Assembly: GCA_950059285.1 (NCBI GenBank)
Contig: CATLTV010000018.1
Coordinates: 1 to 44,340, forward strand
DNA from: an uncultured Pseudomonadota bacterium
GTDB taxonomy: Bacteria; Myxococcota_A; Bradymonadia; Bradymonadales; Bradymonadaceae
Direction: 5' to 3'
Length of the DNA: 44,340 nt
Numbering within the stretch: the stretch's first letter is position 1; each line of letters begins with the position of its first letter. The notes beneath the pieces were generated by a model. It saw nothing but the letters and a program-made list of their open reading frames with translations. It did not search any database and was not told the DNA's origin. A program made the position numbers and the translations under genes. Positions 6,365 to 42,302 of the stretch are shown here, in pieces.

Positions 6365-8917
6365 ATGAGCGAGCTGGGCATTCTTCCTAATCCAATTCCC
6401 TTTGGAAAATATTATCTCCTTGAGCGAGTCAACATTGGGGGGATGGCTGAGATTTTCAAGGCCAAAGCCTTTGGTGTGGAGGGTTTTGAGCGTCTTCTTG
6501 CGGTCAAGAAGATTCTGGCGAGCATTGCTGAAGATGAAGCCTTCATCAACATGTTCATTGATGAGGCCAAGATCGCGGGTCAGCTCAACCACCCCAACAT
6601 CGCGCAGATCTTCGACCTCGGTAAGGTCGATGAGTCCTACTTTATCGCCCTGGAATATATCAGCGGCAAGGACCTCAAGACGATCTTTGAGCGCGCTCGC
6701 CGTCTCGGCGAGAAGGTCAGCATTCCCCGTATTTGCTACATCCTGATGAAGATCTGTGAAGGTCTTGAGCACGCGCACACCAAAAAAGATGCGCAGGGTG
6801 TGGACCTTCATATTGTGCACCGTGATGTCAGCCCTCAGAATATCCTCCTCTCCTACGAGGGTGAGGTGAAGATCATCGACTTTGGCATCGCCAAGGCGCA
6901 GGGTAAGACCAGTCAGACTCAGGTGGGTATCCTCAAGGGCAAGTTCAGCTACATGAGCCCCGAGCAGGTACGCGGCCTTCATATCGACCACCGCTCTGAC
7001 ATCTTCTCGCTTGGTATCGTCCTGTACGAAATGCTCACACTTGAGCGCCTCTTCCTTGGTGAGAGCGACTTTGACACCCTTGAGAAGATCCGCAAAGTTG
7101 AGATGAGCCCACCCTCATTGTACAACCCACACATCCCCAAGGAGCTCGAAGATATCGTCCTCAAGGCGCTCGCCAAGAGCCCCGAGGATCGCTACCAGAG
7201 CGCCTCCGAGTTTGATGATGCGCTCCAGCGCTTCATGCGTAATCAAGGTTACTACTTCACCAACAAAGACCTTGGCTCCTACATGAAGGAGTCCTTTAGC
7301 GCAGACATCGAGTTCGAAAACAAGAAGATCGAATACTACCGTAGCCTCAACCTTCAGGCCCCTGTGAATCAGCCTGCTGCGCAGCCCATGGCTCCCTCTC
7401 GCACAGGGTCTCACTCACCTGCTCCCATGATGGGACTAAGCTGGGGCGATGACGAAAAAGACACACAAATTTACAACCGTGAGACACACTCTCCTGATGA
7501 ATCCATCGTTGAGAGTTTGATCGATGCGGACATCATCTTCTCTGAAGATCTTGAAGGTCTTGATGATGAGAGTGAAGGCGAACACCATGACCCGCCCACC
7601 GTCGAGTTCAATCGAGACGCGTTGAGCAAGAGTCTTGAGGAGTTCTCCTTTGATGATGTGCCTCCTCCCTCACACAAACCTCGTCAGCCAATGCCTACTG
7701 CGCAGCTCCCCTCCGTGGAGCCTCGCCGTGAATCATCCATGACGATGCCCAATGCGGCAATCCCTCAGAAAGAAGAGAAGAGCTCTACGCCCGTGATCCT
7801 CGGTGTTGCCTTCGTGGTCATCGCGCTTGGTGGTGGCCTCATCTTTGCCCTCTGGCCATGGGATGCTCAGGTGAACTTCAAGCCTACTCCTGCCAATGTC
7901 AGCATCACGGTGGATGGCGTGCAGGTCTTCGAGGGAAGCTCTCCTCATACCTACAAAATCAAACCTGGTATTCACGCTGTCGAAATCACCAGCGAGGGGT
8001 ATCAGCCCTACACGGTCAAGCAGGAGTTCCAGTCTCGCGTGACATACAACGTTGAGCCCACGCTCAAGAAAGTCGACGCCACGGCAAATAATCCTGTGCT
8101 CACCGTCACCACCACTCCTCCTGATGCGATCCTTGAGATTGAAGGAAAGTCCTTTAACCAACCATCGCCAAAGGAAATCAAGGACTTCAAAGCGGGTAAG
8201 TACGCCATCAAGCTCACAAAGCCTGGCTACAAACCACTTACGCAGGATGTTGAACTTGCTGAGGATGGCGCAAAGCTCGACCTCTCCCTTGTGCCCGTCA
8301 AATTCGTGGCAAACATCTCCAGCGATCCTTCTCGTGCAAGCTTTGAGCTCTACGACAAGGACACCAACGCGCTGGTCACCAAGGGCAAGACCCCCGAGAA
8401 CGTCAAGGACCTTGATGGCTCCAAGACCTACCGCCTCGTGATCAAGTCCAAGGATAAACAAGACTTCGAGCAAATTCTTGAGCCTTCCAGTGATGAAGAA
8501 CGCAAGATCGCTGCAACCCTCAAAGATGAGGAGAAAGAAGAGCCAACCAAGGTCGCCAGCGTCGCGAAGAAAGATCCACCCAGGAAAGATCCTGTGGTCA
8601 AGAAAGACCCTGTCGTGAAGAAAGACCCCGTTGTTAAAAAAGATCCTGTGGTCAAAAAAGACCCCGTCGTGAAGAAGGATCCGCCCAAGAAAGATCCTCC
8701 CAAGCCCACAGGTGTCGCCACACTCACCATCGGCTCTCGTCCTGCGGCGCGCGTCTTCATCGATGGCAAGGATACTGGCAAGTACACTCCTCTTCGTGAC
8801 TACAAAATCTCGGCATCAAAGCACAAAATCGAGCTTGTAAACGAGGAGTTCAACCTGCGTAAGACCTACTATGTGGATCTCAAAGCGGGTGAATCCAAGC
8901 GAATCATTAACAAGTAA
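6365..8917 (+). CDS. Ser/Thr protein kinase, membrane-anchored, with PEGA repeats
   Basis: 850 aa. The kinase domain (about 15-290) has all key elements: glycine loop VNIGGMAEIF, VAIK-type lysine in LAVKKIL, catalytic HRDVSPQN, IIDFGIAK and SYMSPEQ. The HRDVSPQN and GGMAEIF variants are common in myxobacterial kinases. An acidic/proline linker is followed by one membrane span (about 476-497). The periplasmic part has PEGA repeats (about 502-560 and 565-640), a degenerate third module, a Lys-Pro hinge with five copies of DPVVKK (742-771), and a final PEGA-like domain (785-850). The architecture is a cytoplasmic kinase with a periplasmic binding part, probably for a cell-surface or peptidoglycan ligand (inference). 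The ATG has no clear Shine-Dalgarno sequence. A 29-bp perfect hairpin begins 18 nt after the stop. Confidence 0.96.
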   Translation: MSELGILPNPIPFGKYYLLERVNIGGMAEIFKAKAFGVEGFERLLAVKKILASIAEDEAFINMFIDEAKIAGQLNHPNIAQIFDLGKVDESYFIALEYISGKDLKTIFERARRLGEKVSIPRICYILMKICEGLEHAHTKKDAQGVDLHIVHRDVSPQNILLSYEGEVKIIDFGIAKAQGKTSQTQVGILKGKFSYMSPEQVRGLHIDHRSDIFSLGIVLYEMLTLERLFLGESDFDTLEKIRKVEMSPPSLYNPHIPKELEDIVLKALAKSPEDRYQSASEFDDALQRFMRNQGYYFTNKDLGSYMKESFSADIEFENKKIEYYRSLNLQAPVNQPAAQPMAPSRTGSHSPAPMMGLSWGDDEKDTQIYNRETHSPDESIVESLIDADIIFSEDLEGLDDESEGEHHDPPTVEFNRDALSKSLEEFSFDDVPPPSHKPRQPMPTAQLPSVEPRRESSMTMPNAAIPQKEEKSSTPVILGVAFVVIALGGGLIFALWPWDAQVNFKPTPANVSITVDGVQVFEGSSPHTYKIKPGIHAVEITSEGYQPYTVKQEFQSRVTYNVEPTLKKVDATANNPVLTVTTTPPDAILEIEGKSFNQPSPKEIKDFKAGKYAIKLTKPGYKPLTQDVELAEDGAKLDLSLVPVKFVANISSDPSRASFELYDKDTNALVTKGKTPENVKDLDGSKTYRLVIKSKDKQDFEQILEPSSDEERKIAATLKDEEKEEPTKVASVAKKDPPRKDPVVKKDPVVKKDPVVKKDPVVKKDPVVKKDPPKKDPPKPTGVATLTIGSRPAARVFIDGKDTGKYTPLRDYKISASKHKIELVNEEFNLRKTYYVDLKAGESKRIINK
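8588..8677 (+). repeat. Five 18-nt in-frame repeats encoding DPVVKK
   Basis: Five consecutive units encode Asp-Pro-Val-Val-Lys-Lys inside the PEGA kinase. The units differ at many synonymous positions (GAT/GAC, GTG GTC / GTC GTG / GTT GTT). The repeat is therefore old and kept at protein level, probably as an extended basic periplasmic hinge. Confidence 0.85.
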
Positions 8918-8935: not shown

Positions 8936-8997
8936 CCCAAGAAAACGAGAAGGGGGCGGCTTGATTTATCAAGCCGCCCCCTTCTCGTTTTCTTGGG
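8936..8997. terminator. Long perfect hairpin IR1 downstream of the PEGA kinase
   Basis: Two 29-nt arms (8936-8964 and 8969-8997) are perfectly complementary around a TTTA loop. The core is GAGAAGGGGGCGGC. The 3' arm carries CTCGTTTTC, so a U-rich stretch lies inside the stem rather than after it. It sits between the kinase stop (8917) and the glpX start (9091), so it probably ends the kinase transcript. The outermost CCCAAG/CTTGGG pairing is more than termination needs. Confidence 0.85.
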
Positions 8998-11803: not shown

Positions 11804-11849
11804 TAAAACAGGCGAGGCTCCCATGAAGATGGGAGCCTCGCCTGTTTTA
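11804..11849. terminator. Long perfect hairpin IR3 between convergent genes
   Basis: Two 21-nt arms (11804-11824, 11829-11849) pair perfectly around GAAG; a short flanking GCA/TGC pairs beyond a bulge. T-runs lie on both sides: TTTTTTTTGGTGC before it, and CTGTTTTA inside the 3' arm. It lies between the plus-strand lipoprotein stop (11729) and the minus-strand Kazal gene stop (11879), so it can serve both as a bidirectional terminator. Confidence 0.85.
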
Positions 11850-12739: not shown

Positions 12740-12925
12740 CTTGAGACCCTCATTGAATAAATTGTTGAATGGTATGTGTGTGACTTGAAAAAATCGCACA
12801 TGGTTTTATTTAGCGTTGAGGTATAGCTGCAAGATGGTTGCCAATGGTAACAAAGTGCAACAATTTACGACTTCTTGGTCGCAAAGTATAAATTAGTGTG
12901 CATTTTCGAGGATCTGTTGGACGAT

Positions 12926-12973
12926 AAATGGAAGGTCGACTTGCCACTTGGGTGGCAAGTCGACCTTCCATTT
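12926..12973. repeat. Long perfect hairpin IR4 without a U-run
   Basis: Two 22-nt arms (12926-12947, 12952-12973) pair perfectly around TTGG. The sequence AAATGGAAGGTCGACTTGCC is unrelated to the GGGGCGG core of the other hairpins. Neither strand has a U-run after the stem. It lies between two minus-strand lipoprotein genes, 32 nt past the stop of the upstream one (13006). Confidence 0.85.
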
Positions 12974-13005
12974 GTCAGATATTTGAGGGGTAGATTCAAG
13001 GAGAG

Positions 13006-20930: not shown

Positions 20931-21818
20931 ATGGCGTCTTACGACTTTGACTTTCAACGCTACGTCGATAAACAGAAAAGCAGGTTAGGCACTCCCACGG
21001 AGAGCGATGAATTTGGTGACTACGCCTTCAGTGGTGATGTGCGTGTGTTGCGAAAACTTGATCGTGCCAAGCCCGTCAAAGTCATCGCCGAGGCCTCCGT
21101 GCGCTTCTGGAAGACCGTGCAGAAGAACGAGCTTCTTGGTCAGGGTGTGAAGGTCAGTCATAAGCAGTTTCCTGAAGTGTATCAGGCGGTTGTTGATTGC
21201 TCGCATAAACTCGGAATCTCCATTCCAAATGTATATATCTCCAGTGGGTATCGCTTGAACGCAGGGACATATGGCACGGATGAAGAGGCGTTTATTGTCA
21301 TTGGCTCCGCGTTGCTCCAGTTGCTTGATCCTGCCGAACTCACCTTTGTGATTGGTCACGAGTGTGGGCATTTGCAAAACAACCATGTCGTCTACCGCAC
21401 CGCCGTATCGTTCCTGTCTCAGGGCGTCGGCGTGTATGTGAAGTGGGCCGTGATTCCTGCCTCTGTTGCGCTCAATGGGTGGAGCCGCCGCGCAGAAATT
21501 ACCTGTGATCGCGCAGGAATGGTATGTTGCGAAGACGAGGTTGCCGCCACACAGGCGATGCTTAAACTTGCTACAGGAAGCAAAGAGTTGGCCAATCGCG
21601 TCGATGTTGAGGATTATCTCAACCAGCTCGATGGTTTGAAGGAAGGAGTGGGCCGCTTCTCGGAGCTTCTGGCCACACACCCCTATTTGCCCAAGCGTGT
21701 GGCGGCGCTACGCCTCTTTGCTCAAAGCAACTATTTTGCCGCGCTCACAGGGCAGCGTGGGGGCCGCCCACTTGATGAGATCGACCGCGAGGTCGAAGAC
21801 TTGATTCAGGTGATGTGA
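20931..21818 (+). CDS. M48-family zinc metallopeptidase
   Basis: 295 aa. The zinc site HECGH (VIGHECGHLQNNH, about residues 141-153) with the downstream glutamate in RRAEITCDRAG (about 187) marks an M48/HtpX-Oma1-like gluzincin. AAGGTGA lies 7 nt before the ATG. The region between them (VSFLSQGVGVYVKWAVIPASVAL) is moderately hydrophobic and could sit against the membrane, but no clear signal peptide or strong membrane span exists, so a cytoplasmic or peripheral location is likely. The tail has a short basic stretch and an acidic end (DEIDREVEDLIQ). It is probably co-transcribed with the preceding small lipoprotein. Confidence 0.93.
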   Translation: MASYDFDFQRYVDKQKSRLGTPTESDEFGDYAFSGDVRVLRKLDRAKPVKVIAEASVRFWKTVQKNELLGQGVKVSHKQFPEVYQAVVDCSHKLGISIPNVYISSGYRLNAGTYGTDEEAFIVIGSALLQLLDPAELTFVIGHECGHLQNNHVVYRTAVSFLSQGVGVYVKWAVIPASVALNGWSRRAEITCDRAGMVCCEDEVAATQAMLKLATGSKELANRVDVEDYLNQLDGLKEGVGRFSELLATHPYLPKRVAALRLFAQSNYFAALTGQRGGRPLDEIDREVEDLIQVM

Positions 21819-22223
21819 TAGGATGATTACAGGTTGATGTTAAAGGAGAAGTCGCGCTTTTGAGCCTGAGCTTGCTGGCTCACTGTCATTGAAGGTGACC
21901 ATGCAGTGTTGAGCGTTGGAGGTCTGTTCCACTGACGCTGCTTCAGAAGGAGCTCATTGCAACGCCGCGCCAGGCAGTCTCAAAACGTAGGTGTGTGCTC
22001 TGTATTACAGGGCATCACTACATTGAGACTTTGCTGGAGTGGGTTCAGAGATCCTTGTCCAGAGCGGCTACAGGAACGACCCGCTGATGCTCCACTGGTC
22101 ACCTTGCAATGTGCAAGGCCAGAGGGCGTGCAGTGCTCGTGTTGAAGCGTGGCTTCCCCTTTAATTTCAACTTGTTATATGTTTCTGTAAACAGGCGTTT
22201 ATCTTTTTAACCAAGAGAGGATC
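21819..22223. other. 405-nt non-coding region holding the rod-like fold
   Basis: No protein-coding gene is seen. Nucleotides 21887-22111 fold into one long rod (see the ncRNA entry). On either side are TGAGCC-N10-GGCTCA (about 21861-21882) and GAAGC-GTG-GCTTC (22144-22156), followed by CCCCTTTAATTTC, a weak terminator-like end. Confidence 0.5.
21887..22111 (+). ncRNA. Candidate structured RNA, rod-shaped, 6S-RNA-like
   Basis: Pairing runs almost continuously from base to tip: CATTG (21887-21891) with CAATG (22107-22111), AAGGTGACC (21892-21900) with GGTCACCTT (22097-22105), AGTG with CACT (22093-22096), GAGC with GCTC (22089-22092), GTC-GTTCC with GGAAC-GAC (22073-22080), AAGGA (21947-21951) with TCCTT (22052-22056), CCAG and GTCTCAA (21970-21983) with TTGAGAC and CTGG (22023-22037). 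The tip is TGCTCTG-TATTA-CAGGGCA. A long rod with small bubbles and about 225 nt length is the shape of bacterial 6S RNA, which binds RNA polymerase, but I cannot confirm its sequence signatures. A U-G pair at the tip favours the plus strand. No clear promoter is visible. Confidence 0.42.
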
Positions 22224-24989
22224 ATGAGCAACGACGACAACAAGACCGACATTGAGGAGTCTGAAGAGACTCGACGCCCTTCACCCGTAATTGCCCGTGA
22301 TGTGGCCGCCGATCCTTCCGATCTTGCGTCCAAAAAGTCCACCACGCCCTCTCCCGTATCTCCCTCGGATGCTACCTCTCCTGTGAAAAAACTCGGCGAG
22401 CAAACCCCCTCGGACACTCCACAGCGAGGCATCGTCCTTGAGCAGGGTGAAACGGTGCAAGGCACCTCGGAGGAGGACTCATCCACGGAGGATGCTCCTG
22501 TCATCCCCACCCCCCAGGAAGAAGAGCCAGAACCTGTGCCCGTCACGCATGATGAAGATATCGACGCACAGGAAGATGCGCAGGAAGAAGATGTAAGCAC
22601 CTTCCTTGAAGAAATTTTCCCCAATGATGACCTCCCCTCATTCCATGTGCCTGAAACGCCAGCTCCTGAAAAGGAAGACGCAGAGCAAGTGGATGTCGAG
22701 GAAATTCACCACGAAGAAATCCCATCACCAGATGACACTGTAGATTCTTACGAACACGGCGAAGATGGTGACAGTGAAGTCGTTGAAGTGCCTTCTGAAG
22801 AACAGGTGCAGCCTGTGGACGAAGAAGATGTGAGCGAAGACGAGCCCAGGGTCGAAGAAGAACCTGCCGAACTCATGGAGGAGGAGCCTGTGAAAGAAGA
22901 AGAGCCTGTGGAAGAAATTGAGCAGGATGATGCCGAGGATGCGCTTGAAAGTAACTCGGATGTGTTTGAATCAATTGGTGATTCCGAACCTGTTGATGAT
23001 GAGCAAGAAGAGCAAGCAGAAGAAGTCCCGGCGCCCGCTCCTGTGGAACCTGTTGAAGAGGTCAAGGAACCTGAAGAGGTTCAAGACGTTCAAGAGGAAG
23101 AGGCCGACACCGCTGAAAAAGTTGAAACAGTAGAAAAGAATGAGGACGATGAATTTGTCCCCACACCTGCTGTAGCTCTTGGTAAATCTACATCACCCGC
23201 AACTCCTCTTGATACCGATGGTTTGCCCGTCTCTGAAAGTGATGTGCATGGCATCCTCTCTCGCGTGGGTCAGCTCGCCAAGACATGCAACATGCACTCG
23301 CTCTCCAAGGAGATTTATCAAGAGCGGCTCCCAACCCTTGAAGGTGGGAGGATCACGCTCGTTGTGCTTGGTGAGTTCAACCATGGCAAGTCTACTGTGA
23401 TCAATGCGCTGCTTGGTGATCAGGTGCTCCCGATGGGAATCACGCCAACCACCGCTGTGATTACACACCTCGTGCACGCAGAAAAGCCAGTGGTCACAAT
23501 CCAGCCTCCTCATCACGGCGAGCCTTACAGCATCGCGTATGAAGAGATGGAGAAGACCGTCAAGGAGAGTGGTGAGGAGGGTGAAGAGCCAGAATACGTG
23601 GAGATTGGTTATCCCAATGAAGTCCTTAAGAACTCACTTGTGCTCGTGGATACTCCTGGTGTGAATGATATCTCGCGTCAAAAGGTAGAGATTACATATG
23701 GTTATCTTCCTCGCGCAGATGTCATTGTCTATGTGCTTGACGCCACACAGGTGCTTAAAAAATCAGAGGTGACGTTCATTCGCGATCGTCTCCTTCGTTC
23801 AAGCGGCGAGCGCATCATCTTTGTGCTTAACAAGATCGACGCGCTCTCTCCTGATGATGTGGAAGAGGTTGTCGAGTATGCAAAAGAGCGCCTCACCGCA
23901 ATTCTTGGGCCTGTTGAGCTCTTTACATTCTCGGGTCGCAAGGCGCTTGATGCGCAGAAAAAAGGCGAGGAACTGCCCGCTGATTTTGTCGGGTTCAAGG
24001 ATTATTTGCAGCGTTTTGTTCAGGAACAGCGCGCCTACATCATCCTTGACTCCGCACTCTCTGGCGGCGTCCGCGTCTCTTCTCTGATGGAGCAAAACCT
24101 CGCCATTAAACGTCAGGGTTATCAGCTTGAGCGAGAGGATCTTGAGCAGCGTATCGCCGCTGTGCGTGCTCGTCTCAAGGAGTCTCGTCGTCTGATTGCC
24201 GAGAACACCGAGCTGATTGATAGCCGCGTGCAGGGCATTGCAGCCACCGCAAAGCATAACTTGCGCATCTTTACAGAGCAGTTCTCCGAACAACTTCCCA
24301 TGCAAATTGAGCGTGCCGATGCCAGCGACGTGAAGCGATTCCTCCCCGTCTGGATTCAGGAGACCTTCAAGGAATGGCTGGAGAAAGAAGGCAGCGCGTT
24401 GGCAAGAAGTCTTGAGGAGCTTGCCGAGGAAGTGATTCAAATTACGAACGAATCACTCCAGAAAACAGTGCAAAGCTACCAGGATGAGTTTGGTCTTACA
24501 GATGAACTTGACCTCAGTGTGGACACGGTCGCTTACGATGTCAGCGTCTTTGCTCTTGGCGCCTTTGGTGTCTCGATCTTCCTCTTTGCCAACATTCTTG
24601 TGGGTAGTCTCCTGACCCTCGCCACTCCCGTGCTCGCCTACTTCTTCAAGGAGAAGATCGAGGTGCGTATCAAGGAGCGTGCGCGTGAGCAGGGTGTCAA
24701 GGCGATTGAAACCGCCAGCGCCAAGCTTGAAGAAGAGCTGCTGCGCGTCATTCACGGTTATGGTGATCGTCTCAAGGAGTTCGTCGAGATGGCTGGTGAT
24801 AGGCTTTATCGCCAGATTGAAGAGGCGCTCCAGCAAGTTCAAGACGAGACCTCGGGCGATGATGTGGACCGCGAAACCTTGCTTGCACACGTCAATAAAC
24901 ATCTTGAAGCCGTGCATGAACTTCAGGGTGAACTTGTAAAATCCCGTAATGAGCTTGAAGCCTGGGCGACATCTCAAGACTTCAAGTAA
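22224..24989 (+). CDS. Bacterial dynamin-like GTPase with a long acidic N-terminus
   Basis: 921 aa. Residues 1-320 are a disordered, Glu/Asp/Pro-rich region (for example EEEPVKEEEPVEEIEQDD). The GTPase domain has G1 GEFNHGKSTVINALLG (about 383), G2 Thr in TPTTAVITHL, G3 VDTPGVND (about 475) and G4 NKIDAL (about 536). A helical middle follows, with predicted coiled coils (QLEREDLEQRIAAVRARLKE). A hydrophobic hairpin near 773-808 (FALGAFGVSIFLFANILVG) would insert into the membrane, as in BDLP. It probably reshapes or repairs membranes. AGAGG lies just before the ATG. The very acidic arm is unusual for the family and may bind a basic partner or serve in autoinhibition. Its 3' end abuts two giant hairpins. 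Confidence 0.94.
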   Translation: MSNDDNKTDIEESEETRRPSPVIARDVAADPSDLASKKSTTPSPVSPSDATSPVKKLGEQTPSDTPQRGIVLEQGETVQGTSEEDSSTEDAPVIPTPQEEEPEPVPVTHDEDIDAQEDAQEEDVSTFLEEIFPNDDLPSFHVPETPAPEKEDAEQVDVEEIHHEEIPSPDDTVDSYEHGEDGDSEVVEVPSEEQVQPVDEEDVSEDEPRVEEEPAELMEEEPVKEEEPVEEIEQDDAEDALESNSDVFESIGDSEPVDDEQEEQAEEVPAPAPVEPVEEVKEPEEVQDVQEEEADTAEKVETVEKNEDDEFVPTPAVALGKSTSPATPLDTDGLPVSESDVHGILSRVGQLAKTCNMHSLSKEIYQERLPTLEGGRITLVVLGEFNHGKSTVINALLGDQVLPMGITPTTAVITHLVHAEKPVVTIQPPHHGEPYSIAYEEMEKTVKESGEEGEEPEYVEIGYPNEVLKNSLVLVDTPGVNDISRQKVEITYGYLPRADVIVYVLDATQVLKKSEVTFIRDRLLRSSGERIIFVLNKIDALSPDDVEEVVEYAKERLTAILGPVELFTFSGRKALDAQKKGEELPADFVGFKDYLQRFVQEQRAYIILDSALSGGVRVSSLMEQNLAIKRQGYQLEREDLEQRIAAVRARLKESRRLIAENTELIDSRVQGIAATAKHNLRIFTEQFSEQLPMQIERADASDVKRFLPVWIQETFKEWLEKEGSALARSLEELAEEVIQITNESLQKTVQSYQDEFGLTDELDLSVDTVAYDVSVFALGAFGVSIFLFANILVGSLLTLATPVLAYFFKEKIEVRIKERAREQGVKAIETASAKLEEELLRVIHGYGDRLKEFVEMAGDRLYRQIEEALQQVQDETSGDDVDRETLLAHVNKHLEAVHELQGELVKSRNELEAWATSQDFK

Positions 24990-25004: not shown

Positions 25005-25061
25005 GTCAAAACAAGAGGGGCGGCCAGTTACTCCGTAACTGGCCGCCCCTCTTGTTTTGAC
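25005..25061. terminator. Long perfect hairpin IR5a
   Basis: Two 27-nt arms (25005-25031, 25035-25061) pair perfectly around TCC. The core is AAGAGGGGCGGCC with the unique tip AGTTAC. The 3' arm includes CTTGTTTTGAC, so the U-run is within the stem. It starts 15 nt after the dynamin-like gene stop and shares its last two bases with the next hairpin. Confidence 0.88.
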
Positions 25062-25134
25062 AGAGCAAAAGAGGCGAGGAGGGGGCGAGTTTTGCGCAGC
25101 AAAACTCGCCCCCTCCTCGCCTCTTTTGCTCTGT
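25060..25134. terminator. Very long perfect hairpin IR5b, abutting a stop codon
   Basis: Two 36-nt arms (25060-25095, 25099-25134) pair perfectly around GCA. This is the longest inverted repeat in the window. The core is GAGGAGGGGGCGAG. It overlaps IR5a by two bases, and the last base of its right arm is the last base of the minus-strand methyltransferase stop codon (25136-25134). It probably terminates that gene, with CTCTTTTGC in the arm acting as the U-rich part. Confidence 0.88.
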
Positions 25135-26771
25135 TAATCAAACATCACTTTGTAGATATCTGGCCAATCGCCAGGCACCACTTCAGTATAAAGCTGTGTG
25201 GCATCATCCTCTGACTGATAGGTGTGACAGTGGAGGAGCAAGCGATCAAGGTAGTGGCGCAACTGATTGTGGCGATTGAACTTTTTGATGCCAAATTTGA
25301 GGTCTCCGATGATGGGGTGTCCCCATGCGCGTAGGCGCTGGCGAAGGTCAGCGTCCGAGGTGAGGTTGTGGGCCTCAATGGAAATCGCGCTGGTATGGCC
25401 ATCGGAGTGTATTCTTGAGCATGTGATCGTGGCAGGATCTTGGGCTTCGGGAGGCTGTGGCAACTGGCCATGTTTGGGAGTCTTACCCACAACAACTGCA
25501 TGCCATGTGGTGATGCCTCCTGCTTTGGCTATACCCGAGACGCCTTCACTCCAGACTCGCGGTGTATTGTGCGAGGTGGTTTCAAAGAATGCGTCCTGTG
25601 TGATGGGGTCTTTTACAAGCGTGTGCGTCACGTCAGGCTCGACCATGGCGAGCGCCTCGATTTGCTGTGTGAACGGCATCATGTCGATCATGTTGATGGC
25701 GGAGAGTTTGAGGCCATAACGCTCCAGCCGAACAAGATCACGTGTCAATGTATGCTCATTGCATGACATGTAGATGAGCTTTGATGGAGGGTTTTGAATC
25801 AGCCATGTCAACAGATCGGTGTGCACGCCTGCGCGTGCGGGGTTGATGACCACAACATCGCCATCCTGATGGTGTTCCGAGAGCCACTGCGCGACGTTTT
25901 GATCGGATGCCGCTTTTGCGATGATATTTAAGTTTTTGTTTTGATTTGAGTTTTCGTTGATTGCGTTAATCGCAACCTCATCCACATCCGTGGCAATCAG
26001 CGTGCCTTCAGGCGCGACGAGCGCGAGGCCATGAGCGCCTACACCACAATAGAGATCGACAAGACGAGCGGGGTGTTGTTGATCAAGCCAGGAGAGCATT
26101 TGCTCATGTGCTTTGGTGAGCTGTTCTGGATGTTGTTGATAGAAGCTTCCCGTTGGCACACTCAGTACGCGTCCTGTTGTTGGCAGCGTGACCTGCTCAT
26201 CACCAGACGCGAGAGCATCGCGATGGATAGTTTCGCCTGATCCAATGGATGCTCCCTTTCCACCAAGGCGCACTGCGAGCTTGATGTTGGGCTCTTCCAT
26301 GGGAAGCGCGCTCAGGTGAGAGAGGGCATCTTCTCTGGAGATGTCGCCACGAAGACAGAGGATGAGATGCACGGTCTGGTTATCAAGGCTACGTGCTTCA
26401 ATAAAGGAGGCGTAGGGGAGCAGTGGGCTTTCAAAGAGAGCAGGTTTGAGGCGTTGGACCGCATCCTCGACGATGGGTCGGTGTGCCTGACAGTGTGTGA
26501 TGGGGATGATGTCGCGAGAGCCCCTGGCATAGAAGCCCACAAGCTCATCTGGAGTGGATGCGCTGGTGTTGACGACATAACGTGCGCGGCTGCGCCAGCC
26601 CGAGATTTTGTCAGCAGGCAGAGGTTGCACATCGGGGGTAGGGAGCGCGAGTGTCTTGTGTGTAAGTGATTGTATTGAGTTTGTTTTCTGCTCGATTGTT
26701 TGTGCGTATGGAGAGTCGAGCAGGGGGCATCCAGGGCAGGTTGGATGATGAGGGCAGTGAGGTTGAGTCAT
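25134..26771 (-). CDS. TrmA/RlmD-family RNA (uracil-C5) methyltransferase fused to a degenerate RluA-like domain
   Basis: 545 aa. Iron-sulfur cysteines C6, C12 and C15 (PHCPHHPTCPGC) pair with C94 (THCQAH), as in RlmD-type enzymes. The SAM motif VDLYCGVGAHGLAL is at 238-251, INPARAGV at 309-316, the catalytic loop IYMSCNEHTLTRDL (nucleophile C337), and the base motif MPFTQQIEALAMVE (E378). It should methylate uracil-C5 in rRNA or tRNA. There is no clear N-terminal TRAM domain. Residues about 403-545 (RVWSEGVSGIAKAG; WHAVVVGKTPKHG; RAWGHPIIGDLKFG; LLLHCHTYQ) align with an RluA-type pseudouridine synthase, but the catalytic HRLD aspartate and the GRTHQIR motif are lost. Its ATG overlaps the PEGA lipoprotein stop (ATGA), so translation is coupled. 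Confidence 0.9.
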   Translation of the reverse strand: MTQPHCPHHPTCPGCPLLDSPYAQTIEQKTNSIQSLTHKTLALPTPDVQPLPADKISGWRSRARYVVNTSASTPDELVGFYARGSRDIIPITHCQAHRPIVEDAVQRLKPALFESPLLPYASFIEARSLDNQTVHLILCLRGDISREDALSHLSALPMEEPNIKLAVRLGGKGASIGSGETIHRDALASGDEQVTLPTTGRVLSVPTGSFYQQHPEQLTKAHEQMLSWLDQQHPARLVDLYCGVGAHGLALVAPEGTLIATDVDEVAINAINENSNQNKNLNIIAKAASDQNVAQWLSEHHQDGDVVVINPARAGVHTDLLTWLIQNPPSKLIYMSCNEHTLTRDLVRLERYGLKLSAINMIDMMPFTQQIEALAMVEPDVTHTLVKDPITQDAFFETTSHNTPRVWSEGVSGIAKAGGITTWHAVVVGKTPKHGQLPQPPEAQDPATITCSRIHSDGHTSAISIEAHNLTSDADLRQRLRAWGHPIIGDLKFGIKKFNRHNQLRHYLDRLLLHCHTYQSEDDATQLYTEVVPGDWPDIYKVMFD

Positions 26772-29454: not shown

Positions 29455-29523
29455 ACAAGGAGAAGGGGCGGCGTGTGGTGTTGTAGATCATCTACAACAC
29501 CACACGTCGCCCCTTCTTCTTGT
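29455..29523. terminator. Long hairpin IR6 between convergent genes
   Basis: Two 33-nt arms (29455-29487, 29491-29523) pair around TCA. Only two positions are not Watson-Crick, 29471/29507 and 29460/29518, and both are G opposite T, so in plus-strand RNA they stay paired as G-U. The core AGAAGGGGCGGC belongs to the family. It lies between the YiiX-like stop (29441) and the M20 gene stop (29529), 5 nt from the latter. Confidence 0.87.
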
Positions 29524-38449: not shown

Positions 38450-38513
38450 ATCAACACACCCAAGAGGAGCACGCAAAATGACAATTTTGCGTGCTCCTCT
38501 TGGGTGTGTTGAT
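38450..38513. terminator. Long perfect hairpin IR8a after gyrB
   Basis: Two 30-nt arms (38450-38479, 38484-38513) pair perfectly around GACA. The core CCCAAGAGGAGC is a looser form of the family core. TTGTTTTT follows the right arm. It begins 5 nt after the gyrB stop. Confidence 0.87.
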
Positions 38514-38539: not shown

Positions 38540-38599
38540 CACCAACCCGCGCGTGATAATGAGCCTGCAAACAGGCTCATTATCACGCGCGGGTTGGTG
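38540..38599. terminator. Long perfect hairpin IR8b just upstream of a start codon
   Basis: Two 28-nt arms (38540-38567, 38572-38599) pair perfectly around CAAA. A run of seven T follows (38603-38609), the form of a strong intrinsic terminator on the plus strand. Yet the next gene starts only 26 nt after it on the same strand. It is separated from IR8a by 26 nt of AT-rich sequence. Confidence 0.87.
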
Positions 38600-42241: not shown

Positions 42242-42302
42242 GTTTTACTAAGAGATAGGGCGATTTATCTGAAAGATAAATCGCCCTATCTCTTAGTAAA
42301 AC
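42242..42302. repeat. Long perfect hairpin IR9 without a U-run
   Basis: Two 29-nt arms (42242-42270, 42274-42302) pair perfectly around GAA. The core AAGAGATAGGGCGA is a diverged form of the family core. On the plus strand the 3' arm ends CTTAGTAAAAC with no T-run; on the minus strand the same holds. It lies between the M20D stop (42186) and the minus-strand barrel-like gene stop (42313). Whether it terminates transcription is doubtful. Confidence 0.85.

Follow-up and report, generated by a model that had tools for sequence, protein, structure and literature searches.

Intercistronic stems that are processed by RNase III, as well as RNAs derived from 3′ untranslated regions (3′-UTRs), occur in bacteria, and OLE RNA and other large bacterial noncoding RNAs are known as large, structured and lineage-restricted molecules. 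Another described RNA of simple shape, 6S RNA (RF00013), is an unbranched rod of non-continuous helices in which the structure is kept and the sequence is poorly conserved (PMC8876501). The present analysis concerns a rod-shaped element in a window of 44,340 nucleotides (nt; contig CATLTV010000018.1) from an uncultured bacterium of the Bradymonadaceae, where it fills almost the entire gap between an M48-family metalloprotease gene and a dynamin-like GTPase gene. With a probability of roughly one half, the element is read here as a lineage-specific structured sense RNA of the M48–dynamin operon, acting between the cistrons as a terminator or processing element from which a stable RNA may be released. 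Like the RNase III stems and 3′-UTR-derived RNAs, the rod lies between cistrons in their sense, is double-stranded and is followed by a U-rich stretch; in contrast to them, it is much longer, is kept across genera by covariation and carries a common internal-loop motif in some members. The likeness to OLE RNA and other large noncoding RNAs, offered as an analogy only, lies in size, structure and restriction to a lineage, whereas here there is one rod with little sequence conservation, and Rfam 15 gave no family at or above the gathering threshold for the rod or for the relatives' loci.

The rod in the gap between the two genes

The initial annotation described one continuous rod at 21887–22111, and the folding results agree with it: on the + strand this segment forms one continuous rod of −107.9 kcal/mol (dinucleotide-shuffle z −7.65, matched by 0 of 200 shuffles), which is capped by the loop within CTGTATTACAG, with its tip near 22003–22007, and the opposite strand folds more weakly (−90.2 kcal/mol, z −4.71). 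The rod was thus confirmed but its ends were not, the span being too narrow, as the structure extends outward to 21819–22187 (the 3′ end approximate) with a core at 21829–22175 and 148 pairs. When the whole gap (21819–22223) is folded (−184.5 kcal/mol, z −9.08), nearly all of it forms a single unbranched hairpin. The rod, ~350 nt long in the window, starts at the stop codon of the M48 gene (20931–21818) and leaves a spacer of ~36 nt up to the dynamin-like start codon (gene at 22224–24989), in keeping with the placement between these genes given in the initial annotation. Two imperfect tandem copies of 24 bases (21802–21847) straddle the junction of the M48 gene and the rod. In a hairpin scan of the own genome (1.2 Mb, both strands), the rod scored 133 and the best other match 105; one of the next-ranked matches, of 296 nt, was a perfect short hairpin from which the match had extended into coding sequence. 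An open reading frame of 62 amino acids is present at 21957–22145; a coding function was rejected, because alignments of the relatives' gaps contain indels and show covariation of the RNA type.

The M48–dynamin gene pair is kept across the Myxococcota (Sorangium, Polyangium and metagenome-assembled genomes of the Sandaracinaceae), where the intergenic space is usually small. The closest named relatives include Lujinxingia vulgaris, Lujinxingiaceae and Bradymonadaceae, and genomes of the same family hold the same pair at ~60% protein identity. On these grounds the window probably belongs to the order Bradymonadales, which is placed in the class Bradymonadia of the Myxococcota (PMC11509652). Among the 21 genomes of the family set, a gap of ~320–400 nt with a rod was found in 11, comprising the window's own genome (G000) and G003, G005, G006, G009, G011, G013, G014, G015, G016 and G018, and the gap of G004 is also rod-like, less cleanly. 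Equivalent rods of 290–350 nt are therefore present in the same gap in ~11 further family genomes, with a length of ~290–330 nt in most relatives; they are mostly unbranched, and z lies between −3.5 and −7.3 in most family members. The gap of G007, in which the contig ends in an apparent sequencing adapter, was left out. Beyond the family, rods are probable in three sister-family genomes (G022, G023 and G025) and in one genome of the class (G033).

DNA searches did not recover these elements. The window rod found only the window itself among 96 relatives, and the rod of one relative found only its own copy and one weak syntenic piece among 26 genomes, from which it follows that the shape is conserved and the sequence is not. 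The sequence alignment of all 11 rods was too divergent for use, and a mixed inner alignment (A6) was likewise poor. A simple hairpin scan in GC-rich relatives did not distinguish the rods from background.

Compensatory changes and the strand under selection

Covariation in homologous regions, which had been proposed as a check, was found in an alignment of three relatives (A3), which was made with MAFFT from sequence alone and comprises G009, G014 and G011. Of its 103 pairs, 37 had changed on both sides, compared with 15.5 after shuffling, and 0 of 500 shuffles reached as many. Furthermore, 86.6% of the cells were paired, against 74.5% with partners shuffled and 37–50% with partners slid, where the slid comparison is flattering because the structure was derived from A3 itself and where the shuffles do not preserve relatedness. 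Compensatory changes beyond chance were shown in these three relatives, and the window copy has no close relative. In a trio of closely related Lujinxingia genomes, 99.2% of the cells pair, and G-U occupies 17 cells of the pairs that vary, against 0 for A-C; covariation in this trio alone was not significant (118 of 500 shuffles), with too few changes.

The kind of mismatch carries information about the strand. A3 holds in total 52 G-U and 7 A-C cells, a count that the choice of structure tilts somewhat toward G-U, and in 13 of 16 members the + strand gives the more stable fold, with a margin that reaches 44 kcal/mol. Since a repeat maintained at the DNA level would give A-C and G-U cells in about equal numbers, and an RNA of the opposite strand would give more A-C than G-U, the selected molecule is most likely the sense-strand RNA. 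These results bear directly on whether the element could be a DNA-level inverted repeat, for example a decayed palindromic mobile element, as might be thought from further intergenic inverted repeats of the window that are long and perfect. Such an origin is highly improbable, because the rod is single copy, occurs at the same place in many genera, shows compensatory changes and has G-U to A-C ratios (52:7 and 47:0) that would be unexpected for a DNA palindrome. In the initial annotation, a new regulatory RNA had been offered as one possibility; conserved synteny, covariation in the relatives and the sense G-U bias lend support to this alternative, the regulatory role itself being putative.

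Comparison with 6S RNA

The other possibility in the initial annotation was that the rod represents the 6S RNA of this lineage, 6S RNA being a mimic of an open promoter that binds RNA polymerase and serves as a template for pRNA. The rod shape would suit such a molecule, and the own assembly (G000, 95% complete) yielded no 6S gene elsewhere, which may be divergent or located in the missing part; a family-specific 6S model (R1), likewise returned no 6S gene from the own genome, a weak result given that its structure has only 40 pairs. However, the Rfam 6S model, which had been proposed as a check, gave no match over 21700–22300 at E-values up to 10 and none at the rod loci of 16 relatives at E-values up to 5. 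Applied to 58 relatives, the same model located 6S at other sites in 34. Eight of the rod-bearing relatives (G003, G004, G005, G006, G013, G014, G016 and G018) possess such separate 6S loci, with E-values from 1.7e-8 to 4.5e-4; of these loci, only those of G006 and G014 pass the Rfam curated cut-off, and a family alignment of such matches shows shared blocks. A better 6S candidate elsewhere, named beforehand as the observation that would speak against a 6S identity, was thus found in the relatives, whereas none was found in the own genome. Furthermore, 6S RNA is ~200 nt long and has a central bubble, whereas the rod, at 290–370 nt, is nearly twice as long, and in its predicted minimum-energy fold the helices appear continuous, with loops of ~1–4 nt per side and without such a bubble. 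Given the absence of any 6S score, the coexistence with a separate 6S gene in relatives, the length and the missing bubble, it is very unlikely that the rod is a 6S RNA.

Possible roles of the rod RNA

The rod is presumably transcribed and functional. In the operon reading preferred here, it would be co-transcribed with the M48 gene, after which the closing helix and the U-rich tail may stop or slow RNA polymerase, or RNase III may cut the double-stranded rod. The M48 messenger RNA (mRNA) would thereby end in a stable rod, the rod RNA could be released as a stable RNA, and expression of the downstream dynamin-like gene would be set separately. The features at the 3′ end of the rod are consistent with this proposal at the level of the group. 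The 12 bases after the rod contain 39% T, compared with a background of 20% (15 members), and GC-rich hairpins that form locally in the 3′ base of the rod score 90 over all members, compared with 24 ± 17 after shuffling (0 of 300), a statistic in which a slight bias is possible because the rod ends were chosen from the folds by hand. A hairpin with a U-rich tract is thus present across the members as a group and is weak in the window copy, which does not score in that test. In the window, a T-rich stretch (7 of 12 bases) follows the rod core on the + strand at 22176–22187, and a small, weak + strand hairpin GAAGCgtgGCTTC at 22144–22156 in the 3′ base of the rod, which stood at about chance level in a scan for terminator-like hairpins, might compete with the basal helix.

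The same features would also suit a simple hairpin of the M48 gene, serving as a strong terminator or for mRNA stability, with a length that drifts neutrally, given that very long hairpins follow other genes of this genome and that the rods have T-rich tails. This explanation is nevertheless quite unlikely, because different genera preserve both a rod of ~300 nt and an internal-loop motif, which sets the element apart from the short perfect hairpins behind other genes. Of the 16 members, 7 have AGTAGA within the first 95 nt, whereas shuffling gives 0.25 on average and at most 3 in 500 shuffles, and CGAA or CGAAA stands opposite it on the rod in most of those members. In sequence, the AGUAGA/CGAA loop resembles the sarcin-ricin/loop E motif AGUA/GAA, and this internal loop, which several relatives have in common, may be bound by a protein.

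Such a site would fit an independent trans-acting noncoding RNA that has a promoter of its own in the terminal part of the M48 gene and acts in an RNA–protein particle. This possibility, which is less likely than the operon reading, draws on the conserved rod, the possible terminator at its 3′ end and the sarcin-ricin-like loop common to two families. On the other hand, a scan of the + strand upstream of the rod for the sigma-70 consensus found no promoter-like site, sequence turnover is very high, and the rod was seen only between the M48 and dynamin-like genes and in their sense, in a search that covered only this gap and a portion of a single genome. A bolder version is rather unlikely: a free rod of 300–350 nt, with a protein site of the sarcin-ricin type near its base, would represent a new class of Bradymonadia noncoding RNA and would form a ribonucleoprotein that is linked to two proteins, the membrane protease M48 and the dynamin-like GTPase.

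Several points weigh against the operon reading. Six family members (G001, G002, G008, G010, G012 and G020) share the gene pair with a rod-less gap of <100 nt, so that the rod is dispensable for the operon, and ~350 nt is more than a cis element needs. The window copy lacks both the AGUAGA motif and a strong terminal hairpin, and, its sequence being too divergent, its homology to the other rods would rest on synteny, shape and fold. In addition, the chain aligner is guided by structure, so that many of its both-side changes arise by construction, and the evidence for the RNA is computational.

Of the flanking genes, the product of the M48 gene (+ strand) matches Pfam PF01435 (E 2.5e-25), its orthologues adjoining a dynamin-like gene across the Myxococcota, and that of the dynamin-like gene (+ strand) matches PF00350 (E 1.2e-30). 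The N-terminal ~330 residues of the dynamin-like protein (921 amino acids; 22224–23220 for this part) are unmatched in relatives, in which the homology starts mostly near residue 330 and the open frames are shorter. Elsewhere in the window, nine long near-perfect hairpins were observed, at 8936–8997, 11804–11849, 12923–12976, 25005–25061, 25057–25137, 29455–29523, 38450–38513, 38540–38599 and 42242–42302. They have arms of 21–39 base pairs (bp) with 94–100% complementarity and loops of 1–4 nt, are mostly intergenic, with two in tandem pairs, and have the appearance of intrinsic terminators of very great length. Another such hairpin, with arms of ~35 bp, lies in L247 near 7760–7835.

No description of the rod was found in the open-access literature, an absence that is weak evidence, and a literature search found no noncoding-RNA work for the Bradymonadales. 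The comparison with 6S RNA cautions that a rod shape alone does not justify a 6S label. For the Bradymonadales, a group of bacterial predators, the rod represents an RNA family supported by covariation, and one that is preserved almost by shape alone and is hidden from ordinary DNA searches. As an element of the operon, the rod would count among intercistronic structures as a very large and conserved one, and as a free RNA it would constitute a new class of large bacterial RNA.
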